Assembly (NCBI RefSeq): GCF_001280425.1
Contig: NZ_LIUF01000002.1
Location: 124,001 to 188,000, forward strand
Direction of reading: 5' to 3'
From: Haloarcula rubripromontorii
Lineage (GTDB): Archaea; Halobacteriota; Halobacteria; Halobacteriales; Haloarculaceae
Length of the DNA: 64,000 nucleotides
The number at the start of each line of letters is the position of its first letter. Position 1 is the stretch's first letter. Shown in pieces: positions 7,999 to 46,414 of this stretch. Made by a program: the position numbers and the translations under genes. The notes under the pieces were generated by a model. That model worked only from the letters and a program-made list of their open reading frames with translations. It did not search any database and was not told the DNA's origin.

Positions 7999-8853
7999 CT
8001 ACGTGGCGTCGTCACCGGTCGTATCCTGCTCGATAGTCACCTGCACCTTCTCGCCGACGACGAGGTCGATGTCCTCGCCGACGAGTTTCGCGCCGAAACG
8101 CTTGCGGCCACAGAACAGTGCGATACCTGTTATTGGTTCGCCGTTTGCCAGTACGGTCAGGTCGTCCCATGCGACTGTGCGACCGTCGGCTGTCCCGAGA
8201 CGCGCTCCGGCGATAGCGGCGACCGCTGTCCCGTCCCCGGACAGCAACCCCCCGCCCGAGTAGTGTGGCAAACCGCCGTCGAGGACGCCCGAATCGTCGC
8301 CGTCGACATCGTTGGCGATGCCAGCGAAGGAGTCACCGGGTGCTGGATGGACCGGCTCGTCGAGTCGGACCCACGTCTCGCCGCCCTCGACGACAGTGCC
8401 CGTCCCGTCCCATGACAGCGGCGTCACGTCGACAGCCACGTCGACCGGCAGTGACCCCGATGCCCGATAGGGGTTCGTGTCGGGAGCACGGAAGCCGAGA
8501 TGGATGTGGTTCGGAACCCACGGCGCGAAAAAGCCCGCCCGGACCAGCTCCCCGAGGTCGTCCCCTACGGCGACCGTTTCGCCGGCCTCGACAGTGGGGT
8601 CGACGTGCAGTAGCCGCGCCACAGTGTCGCCAGTATCGACCAGAATGAGGTGGTCGTGTTCGGCGGCGTAGGCCTTCGGCGGGGCCTGCACTGTTTTCGT
8701 ATCCAGAACCTCACCGGCGACCGGTGACGGCGCGCGCTCGCCGTCGGGATAGAGGTCGATGGCACACCCCTCGTCGTGGGCGTCGAACGGCGAGTTGTAC
8801 AGGGAAAACCGGTAGTACTGAAAGAGTACGTCTCGCGGTATCGTGACGGCCAT
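7999..8853 (-). CDS. M23 peptidase-like domain protein
   Basis: A 284-residue protein without an evident signal peptide. The first half resembles a LytM/M23 beta-sheet domain: DAHDEGCAIDLYP near residues 24-36 recalls the HxxxD zinc half-site, followed by the SPVAGEV turn, LLHVDPTVEAGETVAVGDDLGELVRAG, typical of M23 strands, and NHIHLGFR near 116, the HxH half-site. The second half is an unrecognised beta-rich domain. With no peptidoglycan in archaea, the role is unclear; it may be a degenerate or differently used M23 fold. It converges on the short ORF at 7897-7998. Confidence 0.6.
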   Translation of the reverse strand: MAVTIPRDVLFQYYRFSLYNSPFDAHDEGCAIDLYPDGERAPSPVAGEVLDTKTVQAPPKAYAAEHDHLILVDTGDTVARLLHVDPTVEAGETVAVGDDLGELVRAGFFAPWVPNHIHLGFRAPDTNPYRASGSLPVDVAVDVTPLSWDGTGTVVEGGETWVRLDEPVHPAPGDSFAGIANDVDGDDSGVLDGGLPHYSGGGLLSGDGTAVAAIAGARLGTADGRTVAWDDLTVLANGEPITGIALFCGRKRFGAKLVGEDIDLVVGEKVQVTIEQDTTGDDAT

Positions 8854-29566: not shown

Positions 29567-29584
29567 ATTATCGCTTTGGATAAT
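29567..29584 (-). promoter_or_regulatory. TATC-N6-GATA dyad upstream of cassette A
   Basis: ATTATC-GCTTTG-GATAAT, a perfect inverted repeat in both 6-base arms. On the minus strand it lies 14 bp upstream of a TATA-like gaaatac (29546-29552), which is itself about 29 nt before the ATG at 29520. The same geometry recurs upstream of five other motility-locus genes. Confidence 0.7.
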
Positions 29585-37628: not shown

Positions 37629-37646
37629 GTAATCAAAGTTGATAGC
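37629..37646. promoter_or_regulatory. Degenerate TATC-N6-GATA-type dyad between cheB and cheW
   Basis: GTAATC-AAAGTT-GATAGC keeps the right half (GATA) and the spacing but has AATC instead of TATC on the left. It is 12 bp upstream of a TATA-like tttatg (37659-37664) serving cheW and about 10 bp from the TATA-like box of cheB on the other strand, so one site could serve both divergent promoters. Confidence 0.4.
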
Positions 37647-38222: not shown

Positions 38223-38948
38223 ATGATTGAGCAAACCAAAACGGGGATCGAGGGCCTCGACGACATTCTGAACGGCGGTATTGTGAAGAACTCGACAACA
38301 CTGGTGAGCGGTAACCCCGGCGCCGGGAAATCGATCCTCTGTCTCCAGTACATCTACAACGGCATCGAAAAGTACGACGAAAAAGGTATCTACCTCTCTT
38401 TCGAGGAGGATGAGTCGGACCTCCGAGAGGCCGCCGAATCCCTCGGCTTCGAAAACTGGCAGGACCACGTCGACAACGGCGATATCAAGGTGTACGACAA
38501 GCAGGTTCTCTTGCGCGAGAACGACTTCACGTCCTCGCTGGATATTCTACTGGAAGAACTCGAAGACGGCGACTACGACCGGCTGGTGCTTGATTCGCTT
38601 GCCATGTTCGAACTGTTCTTCGAAAACGAGAAGGAAAAACGGACCTACCTCCTGAAATTCACCGACATTCTCAGTGACAGCGGCCTCACGACGCTGATGA
38701 CCAACGAACAGGGGGCCGTTTTCCCGGACACCGAAATCGGGCTGGAGAACTATCTGACTGACGGCAACATCTATCTCATCCAGACGCCGACCGACACCGG
38801 CGTGAACAGATACGTCTGGGTCGCCAAGATGCGAAAGCAGAACATCGAGACCGACATCTATCCGATGGAGATCGACCGCGGCGGCATCGATGTCCACCAG
38901 AACGCCAGCGCCTTCTCGATGATGAGCGAGGAAGAATCACCAATTTAG
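38223..38948 (+). CDS. Single-domain KaiC-like / RAD55-type ATPase
   Basis: A 241-residue RecA-fold ATPase. Walker A VSGNPGAGKS near residues 29-38, a KaiC-type LSFEEDESDLREAA near 59-72, Walker B DYDRLVLDSLAMF near 118-130 and an NEQGAVFPDTEIGLENYLTDGNIYL C-terminal region. Haloarchaea encode several such single-domain KaiC relatives. ArlH in the same locus belongs to the broader family but is distinct in sequence. Located between cheW and the winged-helix regulator, it may be a motility regulator (inference). TATA-like tttttaac at 38166-38173. ATG at 38223 follows from alignment to KaiC N-termini (TGIEGLDDIL). Confidence 0.85.
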   Translation: MIEQTKTGIEGLDDILNGGIVKNSTTLVSGNPGAGKSILCLQYIYNGIEKYDEKGIYLSFEEDESDLREAAESLGFENWQDHVDNGDIKVYDKQVLLRENDFTSSLDILLEELEDGDYDRLVLDSLAMFELFFENEKEKRTYLLKFTDILSDSGLTTLMTNEQGAVFPDTEIGLENYLTDGNIYLIQTPTDTGVNRYVWVAKMRKQNIETDIYPMEIDRGGIDVHQNASAFSMMSEEESPI

Positions 38949-39053: not shown

Positions 39054-39071
39054 GATATCACAGGCGATAGC
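39054..39071 (+). promoter_or_regulatory. TATC-N6-GATA dyad upstream of the winged-helix regulator
   Basis: GATATC-ACAGGC-GATAGC, ending directly at a TATA-like tttatta (39072-39078) that lies about 30 nt before the ATG at 39105. Unlike the other copies, which sit 8-14 bp upstream of a TATA-like box, this one abuts it and would cover the BRE, suggesting autorepression. Confidence 0.65.
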
Positions 39072-39104
39072 TTTATTATCGACTGAATTTATGATTTGAT
39101 AACG

Positions 39105-39440
39105 ATGGATTCAGGGGAGATTCTTCAGACGCTTGGTAATAAATACAGTGCCGAAATCCTTGACGCGACGGACGAACCGGTCTCCGCACAGGAGCTCAGC
39201 GACGAACTCGGAATCCCCATCGCGACGTGTTACAGACGGATCGATGAACTGACCGAACACGATCTGCTTGAACTCCACGACAATATCCTCTCTGACGACC
39301 GCCGTCGTATCAAGGTGTACCGGCGCAATGTCGACGAGGTCAGGGTCGACTTCGACGACGAACTAACAGTCCACATCGAAGAACGGTCGGAAGTGACCAA
39401 CAAACTCGACGAAGCGTGGCGGACCCTGTCAGAGCGATAA
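39105..39440 (+). CDS. Winged-helix transcriptional regulator, candidate motility regulator
   Basis: A 111-residue DNA-binding protein. ILQTLGNKYSAEILDAT is the first helix pair of an ArsR-like winged helix, PVSAQELSDELGIPIATCYRRIDELTEHDLL (residues 26-56) the helix-turn-helix with recognition helix near IATCYRRID, and RRRIKVYRRNVDEVRVDFDD the wing. The C-terminus is a helix (SEVTNKLDEAWRTLSER), perhaps for dimerisation. ATG at 39105 follows a leaderless-type TATA. Its promoter carries the same dyad as other motility genes, making it the best candidate for the factor that binds it (inference). Confidence 0.85.
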   Translation: MDSGEILQTLGNKYSAEILDATDEPVSAQELSDELGIPIATCYRRIDELTEHDLLELHDNILSDDRRRIKVYRRNVDEVRVDFDDELTVHIEERSEVTNKLDEAWRTLSER

Positions 39441-39456
39441 AGCGGCTCTAACCGTC

Positions 39457-39474
39457 GTTATCACGAAAGATATT
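39457..39474 (+). promoter_or_regulatory. TATC-N6-GATA dyad upstream of the small membrane protein
   Basis: GTTATC-ACGAAA-GATATT, 12 bp upstream of a TATA-like tttaata (39487-39493) and 49 bp before the ATG at 39524. Core and spacing equal those upstream of archaellin, cheY and arlCE. Confidence 0.65.
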
Positions 39475-39523
39475 TTCGAGCATGGATTTAATAACGGGTT
39501 CGCTGTAGCACTGTACAGTGCTG

Positions 39524-39799
39524 ATGATAGAACTTCTCTATGCCATATCGACGCTGGTGTTCGTCGTCGCCGGACTGACAATGGTGGGGATGGCCATGCG
39601 GGCATACATCCAGACATCTCGGCAGGCGATGCTCCACCTCTCGGTGGGGTTTTCGCTCGCTATCGCGGGCGCGGCTGCGACGATGATTAGCGCGTTCATC
39701 AACGACTTCGAGGGGGTGCGGTCGCTACTGCTGGTCAACAGTGGGTTGACGACCTTCGGCTATCTGTTCGTGATGTACAGTCTCGTCACGTACGAGTGA
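39524..39799 (+). CDS. Small three-helix membrane protein paired with the regulator
   Basis: A 91-residue protein with three hydrophobic segments (about residues 1-23, 36-56 and 66-90) and few loops. The N-terminal segment, IELLYAISTLVFVVAGLTMVGMAMRAY, and the short HLSVGFSLAIAGAAATMISAF are typical of small membrane proteins found next to winged-helix regulators in haloarchaea (possibly DUF7521). ATG at 39524 is chosen over GTG at 39518. It may be a membrane sensor for the regulator upstream (inference). Confidence 0.7.
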   Translation: MIELLYAISTLVFVVAGLTMVGMAMRAYIQTSRQAMLHLSVGFSLAIAGAAATMISAFINDFEGVRSLLLVNSGLTTFGYLFVMYSLVTYE

Positions 39800-40158
39800 C
39801 TACGTGTTTCGGCTACACCAACTGACCGGCCAGCCTCCGACCGGGTCTCTCTGTCGACGATGGTCTCGATGTCCATATTCTATAACCCGAACCCCAACCA
39901 GCCCAGAAGTACCAGACCTCTCGACGATACACCAGACGACCATTTCCATCGCTGATACCAACTTACGGAAGCGATTAAATCTGATTCTTGGAGGTGCTGT
40001 GGCTCGGCCACCGTCTTCAGGCCAAATTATAGGTGTTCTCTATGCAAATCCCGCTAACAGCCCTTCAAAACGCCATTATCAGGTTGGATAATTTGGGGGG
40101 AGGTATTATTACTGGCGAAAAGAACGGTTGCATAGGGTCAGACAGACCCGGATCAACA
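39800..40158. other. 359-bp non-coding region upstream of archaellin
   Basis: No credible gene. It holds a short GTGGC/GCCAC hairpin at 39999-40011 (no T-run), the dyad at 40075-40092, a TATA-like tattatta at 40104-40111 and a predicted untranslated leader of about 20-25 nt before the archaellin ATG at 40159. AT-content rises toward the promoter. The left 180 bp show nothing recognisable. Confidence 0.6.
40075..40092 (+). promoter_or_regulatory. TATC-N6-GATA dyad upstream of archaellin
   Basis: ATTATC-AGGTTG-GATAAT, perfect in both 6-base arms. It lies 11 bp upstream of the TATA-like tattatta (40104-40111), the usual place for an archaeal activator just upstream of the BRE. Confidence 0.7.
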
Positions 40159-40764
40159 ATGCTAACGGAACTAACGAACGACGACGACCGCGGGCAGGTC
40201 GGTATCGGCACCCTGATCGTGTTCATCGCGATGGTGCTGGTGGCGGCAATCGCTGCGGGCGTCCTGATCAACACGGCTGGCTTCCTCCAGAGCAGCGCCG
40301 AGGAAACCGGCCAACAGAGCAGTGACCAAGTGACGAATCGGCTTGAGGTCGTGACCACGGTTGGGACCGTCGATGGCGGCGCGGTAGATACAGTTGAAGT
40401 GACGGTCAAACGAGCACCCGGTGCTGCGAATATAGACCTTGGAAGTACTATCGCACAGTGGGTCAGTTCGGACGGGTCTTACGACCTAACTCAGGGAGCT
40501 TCGGCTGACAGTTCGACATTTAGCGTGTCGGACGTACAAGATGACGACAACTCTATTTCTTCAAGTAACGTCCTCAACGACCCTGCAGACCGGGCGAAGC
40601 TGACGTTCTCTGCGAACGATATCATCGGTGACGGTACCGCTGGCACGGGTCTGTCAGAAGGCGCAACGGCAACTGTCCGACTGAACACCCAGTCTGGTGG
40701 AACCAGCACGGTTCGACTGGTCGTCCCGGAGACCCTGTCTGGTAATTCTGCAGTCACCCTCTAG
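40159..40764 (+). CDS. arlB: Archaellin, filament subunit of the archaellum
   Basis: A 201-residue type IV pilin-like protein. The short basic/acidic leader ends in DDDR|GQVG, the site of the prepilin peptidase, followed by the hydrophobic assembly helix [24 protein letters not shown] and the family-typical [13 protein letters not shown]. The outside domain is Ser/Thr/Asp-rich and beta-stranded and ends [13 protein letters not shown], the common archaellin C-terminus. Several N-x-S/T sequons are rare here, with few glycosylation sites visible (for example NDP is not one). This is the only archaellin gene in the window. ATG at 40159 gives a 12-residue leader. Confidence 0.95.
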
Positions 40765-40854: not shown

Positions 40855-41430
40855 ATGGCTCGGCGGTCAGACGAACCGAATCCGGAAGAGGGCAAGGTAC
40901 TTTCGCCCGAAGAGCTCGATATCGCCGACGACGAGCACGTCACTGAAATCGACGAAGGCCGCTACGTCGTCTCGTCGGATGTCCGCACTGACGACTCCTA
41001 CGGGAACCAGGTCTCATCGGATTCGGCGTCTGAATCATCGCCGTCTCCTGCACCAGACCCGGAACCGTCGACGCCCAAATTCTCCGATGCGAACGTCCAC
41101 GAGTGGCTTGCCGAACAGATGGCCGACTCAAACGCCAGATACGGCTTCGACGTGACCGCGAAGTTCGACGGCGACGTCGACCAGCAGCAGCTTGCTTCCA
41201 ACGACATTGTCACCGTTTTCGAGAGCTTCATGCTCTGGTACGGCCGCCAGATGGACGGATCGACACCGGTCGAAGAAGTGCTAGGTATTCTGCTGTCGGA
41301 ATCGAACGTTCCGGTTCGCTACCCGCCAGCGGTCATCAAGCAGCTCGTCCGGTCGACACAATTGACGCCGGACGATTCCATCGCTGATCTCCTGGAGGCC
41401 GTCGAAGATGCCGACGGCGCGGAACTCTGA
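40855..41430 (+). CDS. Acidic protein of unknown function in the archaellum locus
   Basis: A 191-residue cytosolic protein. Residues 1-80 are disordered and acidic (Ser, Glu, Pro, Asp-rich). The conserved part (85-185) is helical: NVHEWLAEQMADSNARYGFDVTAKFDGD, FESFMLWYGRQMDGSTPVEEVLGILLSESNVPVRYPPAVIKQLVR. I recall homologues beside arl genes in other haloarchaea (possibly DUF7500), without known function. No dyad site lies upstream. It could be a regulator or adaptor of archaellum assembly (inference). Confidence 0.7.
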   Translation: MARRSDEPNPEEGKVLSPEELDIADDEHVTEIDEGRYVVSSDVRTDDSYGNQVSSDSASESSPSPAPDPEPSTPKFSDANVHEWLAEQMADSNARYGFDVTAKFDGDVDQQQLASNDIVTVFESFMLWYGRQMDGSTPVEEVLGILLSESNVPVRYPPAVIKQLVRSTQLTPDDSIADLLEAVEDADGAEL

Positions 41431-44051: not shown

Positions 44052-44069
44052 GATATCACACGCGATAAT
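44052..44069 (+). promoter_or_regulatory. TATC-N6-GATA dyad upstream of cheY
   Basis: GATATC-ACACGC-GATAAT, 12 bp upstream of a TATA-like tttatc (44082-44087) and 49 bp before the cheY ATG at 44119. It would control the cheY-cheC-cheD unit. Confidence 0.7.
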
Positions 44070-46396: not shown

Positions 46397-46414
46397 ATTA
46401 TCAAATATGATACG
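46397..46414 (+). promoter_or_regulatory. TATC-N6-GATA dyad upstream of arlCE
   Basis: ATTATC-AAATAT-GATACG, 8 bp upstream of a TATA-like aatatt (46423-46428) and 44 bp before the arlCE start at 46459. It would drive the six-gene arl operon. Confidence 0.65.

Follow-up and report, generated by a model that had tools for sequence, protein, structure and literature searches.

A gene pair lying between a KaiC-domain gene and an archaellin gene was identified in the window (the whole stretch of 64,000 nucleotides from Haloarcula rubripromontorii analysed here), consisting of a small winged-helix (wHTH) regulator, apparently the Haloarcula orthologue of CsmR, and a three-helix membrane protein of the DUF7521 family. 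The regulator itself is already known. What is new here is the variant with a site at the regulator's own promoter and a membrane partner, together with the wider wHTH-DUF7521 class. It is fairly probable that CsmR would bind the TATC-N6-GATA dyad, assist its targets and limit itself, with DUF7521 as both its target and its dedicated partner. For the more general proposal, that CsmR-type wHTH proteins and DUF7521 form a membrane-coupled class in which the membrane protein would sense a signal and control its own regulator, the chances are evenly balanced. The paper of 2026 on CsmR (PMC13286277) leaves open its input signals and whether it activates or represses, and the Haloarcula-type locus gives a handle on both signals and sign, with a partner gene under the regulator's site and two promoter geometries whose half-sites could be exchanged. 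The repeated wHTH-DUF7521 pairing points to an unstudied haloarchaeal signalling class, and to a way to ask how these cells sense signals.

Genes and dyad sites in the window

Domain matches and coordinates of the two reading frames agree with the original prediction, and both promoters carry the dyad as exact copies, as it had also claimed (Table 1). Seven exact copies of TATC-N6-GATA were found in the window with 0.26 expected, and none of 100 shuffles of the window reached seven, which excluded a chance origin. The right half of the dyad is often CGATA in the window, compared with TGATA in the published motif. The six sites meant by the original prediction are most likely those beginning at 37631, 39056, 39459, 40077, 44054 and 46399. 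For the imperfect dyad at 37631-37644, a TATA-like box was located 14 bp off on both sides, and this single site appears to serve two divergent chemotaxis promoters.

Table 1. Features of the csmR-DUF7521 locus and its surroundings, in window coordinates
Feature	Position	Strand	Evidence or remark
KaiC-domain gene, positional counterpart of CirA	38223..38948	+	PF06745, E 6e-50
Apparent csmR orthologue, 111-aa winged-helix regulator	39105..39440	+	PF12840 HTH_20, E 7e-13
DUF7521 three-helix membrane protein, putative CsmR partner	39524..39799	+	PF24365, E 7e-8; 91 aa
Archaellin, putative dyad target	about 40159..40764	+	PF01917, E 3e-34
csmR promoter dyad TATCACAGGCGATA	39056..39069	.	exact TATC-N6-GATA match; ends 2 bp before TATA
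csmR TATA-like box TTTATTAT	39072..39079	+	sequence; AT profile of 35 csmR promoters
DUF7521 promoter dyad TATCACGAAAGATA	39459..39472	.	exact TATC-N6-GATA match
DUF7521 TATA-like box TTTAATAA	39487..39494	+	14 bp after dyad; sequence and AT profile
Archaellin promoter dyad TATCAGGTTGGATA	40077..40090	.	13 bp before TATTATTA
Dyad TATCACACGCGATA before cheY-cheC-cheD	44054..44067	.	14 bp before TTTATC; CheY_Halo NF041367
One-mismatch dyad AATCAAAGTTGATA, common to divergent cheB and cheW promoters	37631..37644	.	cheB and CheW by domain match
Dyad TATCAAATATGATA before the 46459-48099 gene (arlCE-type in the original prediction)	46399..46412	.	TATA spacing less clear

The promoter of the KaiC-domain gene was devoid of the dyad when the window sequence was inspected. 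Neither of the exact dyads at 8022 and 29569 has the TATA geometry of the targets or of the regulator's own promoter, and the 8022 site was set aside as lying outside the dyad-TATA geometry. The one at 29569-29582 is situated between two minus-strand genes with no TATA at the usual distance, and the 160-aa protein downstream of it had no NCBIfam match. A DUF7500 protein (40855-41430) adjoins the archaellin.

Identity of the regulator and of its binding motif

CsmR (HVO_1209) of Haloferax volcanii is a 13 kDa wHTH protein encoded beside arlA1/arlA2 (PLoS Genet, June 2026; PMC13286277). The window regulator is 97-100% identical in named Haloarcula species, and shares 53-69% identity over 110 aa with most other haloarchaeal CsmR proteins and 47% with one of family f3. 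In the phylogenetic tree it was placed in one clade with Haloferax-type CsmR, with six Haloarcula paralogues outside (support 100/98); the Haloferax-type genomes were recognised by gene order, the HVO_1209 sequence itself standing outside the comparison. In their loci csmR is accompanied by two archaellins and by a KaiC gene in convergent orientation (csmR-arlA-arlA-cirA), and copies of the published motif are present. The apparent orthology with CsmR rests on this supported clade apart from the paralogues and on the gene order shared with the Haloferax-type loci. In addition, the upstream neighbour of csmR in Haloferax-type loci, where the published map has hvo_1208, looked on inspection like a DUF7500 protein and not like DUF7521. 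Elsewhere, a csmR-like gene unlinked to archaellins adjoins queC/queD/queE-like genes, judged by eye (L139, L140 and L143, families f3 and f7), and in f7 this gene has cheW and cheY/cheB-like neighbours as well.

The AlphaFold2 model of the regulator (pLDDT 86) is composed of a wHTH, four strands and a C-terminal helix. Its best PDB fold matches in the structure search were Phr (2p4w) and AbfR2 (6cmv), and the top Foldseek matches included Phr (2p4w, E 1e-4), PH1932 (2cwe) and CzrA (1r1u), all of which points to an ArsR-type wHTH fold. No Lrp chain was present among the 50 PDB fold matches listed, PDB sequence relatives were not found, and the AsnC-type HTH (PF13404) reached only E 0.006, below the cut-off. 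The description "ArsR-like" is thus upheld for the fold, with Phr as best match, whereas CsmR was classified on publication as Lrp/AsnC-like (PMC13286277).

ChIP-seq in Haloferax revealed TATCA(N4)TGATA near TATA in 50 of 65 CsmR peaks, and this motif falls at archaellum and chemotaxis promoters; binding of the dyad in vivo and control of motility by CsmR were shown in Haloferax volcanii only (PMC13286277). The Haloarcula locus resembles this system in the small wHTH protein encoded beside archaellins and a KaiC-like gene, and in the same dyad, which precedes BRE/TATA at genes of the archaellum and of chemotaxis. Unlike the Haloferax type, it has a dyad at csmR itself that covers BRE, and next to csmR a DUF7521 gene whose promoter is of the target type. 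The ChIP-seq motif of the apparent orthologue supports, by analogy, the predicted role of the winged-helix protein as reader of the TATC-N6-GATA dyad in Haloarcula.

Regulator and dyad were also expected to co-occur across haloarchaea. Within the family, the median number of spaced dyad-TATA sites was 6 with a csmR orthologue versus 1 without (p 3e-7; by genus means, p 0.007). Genome-wide dyad counts against a reversed-pattern control are usable within one family and confounded in some genomes (the control was also high in g12, and three g22 genomes were affected), so the spaced pattern was used instead. Genus g3 has kept archaellins and has few dyads and no csmR orthologue. Within the family, the original prediction therefore withstands its own refuting condition, absence of the gene from species that keep the dyad. 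Outside the family the relation is less clean, since three f4/g22 genomes possess many dyads and a divergent csmR with no detectable archaellin. In these genomes (G014, G313 and G316), 81-98 TATCA-N5-GATA matches per genome were counted, versus 7-16 in the control.

The DUF7521 membrane protein

The AlphaFold2 model of the DUF7521 protein consists of exactly three helices (2-31, 34-59 and 65-90), and the loop that joins helices 1 and 2 is basic and has the conserved sequence R-A-Y-x2-T. According to the positive-inside rule this loop would be cytoplasmic, and it is a candidate contact site. No PDB sequence relative of DUF7521 was found, the fold search gave nothing above chance, and the family was not mentioned in the literature searched.

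Among 105 DUF7521 genes in 20 genomes of 10 families, 90 are located directly downstream of a CsmR-family gene on the same strand, compared with a chance expectation of about 0.7% each, and 3 of the remaining 15 adjoin a more divergent wHTH gene. Each of these 20 genomes has one to eleven copies, and all eight in the window genome are beside a CsmR-family gene. Across 73 modules the two families diverge in parallel (r 0.80, reached in 0 of 5000 shuffles), and the match persists when partners are exchanged only inside genomes (r 0.756, shuffled maximum 0.435). Linked genes that are inherited together can show such a match even if their products never touch. A wHTH-DUF7521 fusion, sought as evidence of contact, did not occur among the loci fetched, where no ORF had both domains. 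The csmR-DUF7521 pair is one of a large, apparently undescribed class of regulator-plus-membrane-protein modules. For the six other pairs of the window genome no such dyad was observed within 1.5 kb, therefore they probably have other DNA targets.

The DUF7521 gene belonging to csmR itself lies on the same strand in some families, is divergent in others, and is far off in L105, where it carries the dyad all the same. In Haloferax-type genomes csmR has no DUF7521 neighbour, so DUF7521 is not required for the regulon. The membrane partner of the original prediction is therefore part of a very general wHTH-DUF7521 pairing, and for CsmR it is lineage-specific.

A similar arrangement is known from the LytTR regulatory systems (HdrRM, BrsRM; PMC6193735), two-gene units, present in many copies per genome, that encode a small membrane protein and a soluble regulator which binds DNA and has self-binding sites. 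These systems differ in their LytTR fold and positive autoregulation, whereas CsmR is a wHTH protein with its self-site in a repressing position; their membrane family is unrelated by name to DUF7521, and the LytTR DNA-binding domain had no Pfam match in the window. The favoured view, by analogy, is that csmR-DUF7521 would work like LytTR regulatory systems without belonging to them. ArnR/ArnR1 of Sulfolobus likewise provide membrane-linked HTH control of the archaellum; there the HTH and membrane segments are in one chain, whereas the Haloarcula proteins are separate.

Promoter geometry, self-control and the sign of regulation

In the window, 13-14 bp separate the dyad from the TATA-like box at the DUF7521, archaellin, cheY and cheW/cheB promoters. 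In 38 of 41 archaellin promoters whose dyad is exact, the TATA-like box begins 15-16 bp beyond the end of the dyad. DUF7521 promoters resemble them, with an AT maximum at +14 to +19 past the dyad; the short dyad-TATA distances scored at DUF7521 promoters are due to a stretch of ATTTT next to the dyad. An exact dyad was present in 65 of 100 distinct csmR-type DUF7521 promoters, versus 0.1% in the shuffled control. At csmR, each of 33 unselected promoters from the Haloarcula group has the dyad at -49/-50 (one with a single mismatch), with half-sites 99.6%, spacer 81% and upstream flank 56% conserved, and in every genome of this group that was checked the dyad stops 2 bp short of TATA. Five csmR promoters from another lineage carry it at -18, where it covers the start region. 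The two geometries originally proposed, with the dyad near TATA at the regulator and further upstream at targets, are conserved across haloarchaeal lineages.

Self-limitation gains support because either of these two different csmR placements would be expected to block initiation, and autoregulation of csmR is likely in Haloarcula as judged from its promoters. This part of the original prediction is lineage-specific: beyond the Haloarcula group, at least half of the csmR promoters have no exact dyad, and the self-control dyad is absent in Haloferax-type genomes. The csmR transcript levels are stable in Haloferax.

The proposed mechanism starts from gene identity, the DNA motif (Haloferax ChIP-seq), conserved geometry and gene pairing, which were established here or published. 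CsmR would bind TATC-N6-GATA as a dimer. At the targets (archaellin, cheY-C-D, cheB/cheW and DUF7521) the dimer would sit upstream of TATA at a distance of two helical turns, beside BRE instead of over it, and would assist TFB. The position upstream of BRE is where archaeal activators help to recruit TFB. At the csmR promoter the dimer would lie one turn closer, over BRE (over the start region in another lineage), and would limit transcription of its own gene; the sign at each promoter is what we infer. DUF7521, as CsmR target and dedicated partner, would most likely hold or release CsmR at the membrane, and its rise would feed back on CsmR activity; here we infer both the physical contact and the direction of action. 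A comparable binding position is known for EarA of Methanococcus and Pyrococcus, a wHTH protein whose sites at archaellum promoters precede a weak BRE; neither sequence nor structural similarity between EarA and CsmR is reported (PMC13286277).

The activating sign at targets is the weakest step of the model, because deletion of csmR in Haloferax raises target transcripts: those of archaellum and chemotaxis genes rise most at bound promoters, yet motility is abolished, and the authors infer activation despite the rise (PMC13286277). Read plainly, the rise means repression. Of the claim that the regulator activates its targets, the conserved upstream geometry holds and the activating sign is putative. 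It is somewhat unlikely that CsmR represses at all sites and that motility of the mutant is lost for assembly reasons. Such a reading accounts for the published RNA-seq, in which the deletion raised bound genes with the motif most strongly (PMC13286277), but CsmR overexpression gave hypermotile cells (PMC13286277), and target promoters have the dyad upstream of BRE, which it leaves free, so that the contrasting csmR geometry would be purposeless.

It is also possible, though rather improbable, that DUF7521 is simply a co-regulated membrane protein of motility with no action on the regulator. Its target-type promoter, in common with archaellins, would fit this, as would genomes such as L105, where it remains by the archaellins while csmR is elsewhere. 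On the other side, DUF7521 pairs with CsmR-family regulators across haloarchaea, the other six pairs of the window genome lack the dyad nearby, and the two families diverge in step, all of which speaks against this reading. That another factor reads the dyad, the regulator gene being a mere target, is highly improbable: binding of the dyad by CsmR in Haloarcula is predicted by analogy, which leaves this reading some room, but ChIP-seq in Haloferax gives the same motif to CsmR (PMC13286277), and dyads fall in genera without csmR. CsmR as dyad reader with DUF7521 as its partner is the preferred account.

Dyads with the target spacing also precede two halobacterial-chemoreceptor-like genes, L251 (G000:C1:329584) and L256 (G000:C2:252480), which suggests that the CsmR regulon probably extends beyond the archaellum cluster.
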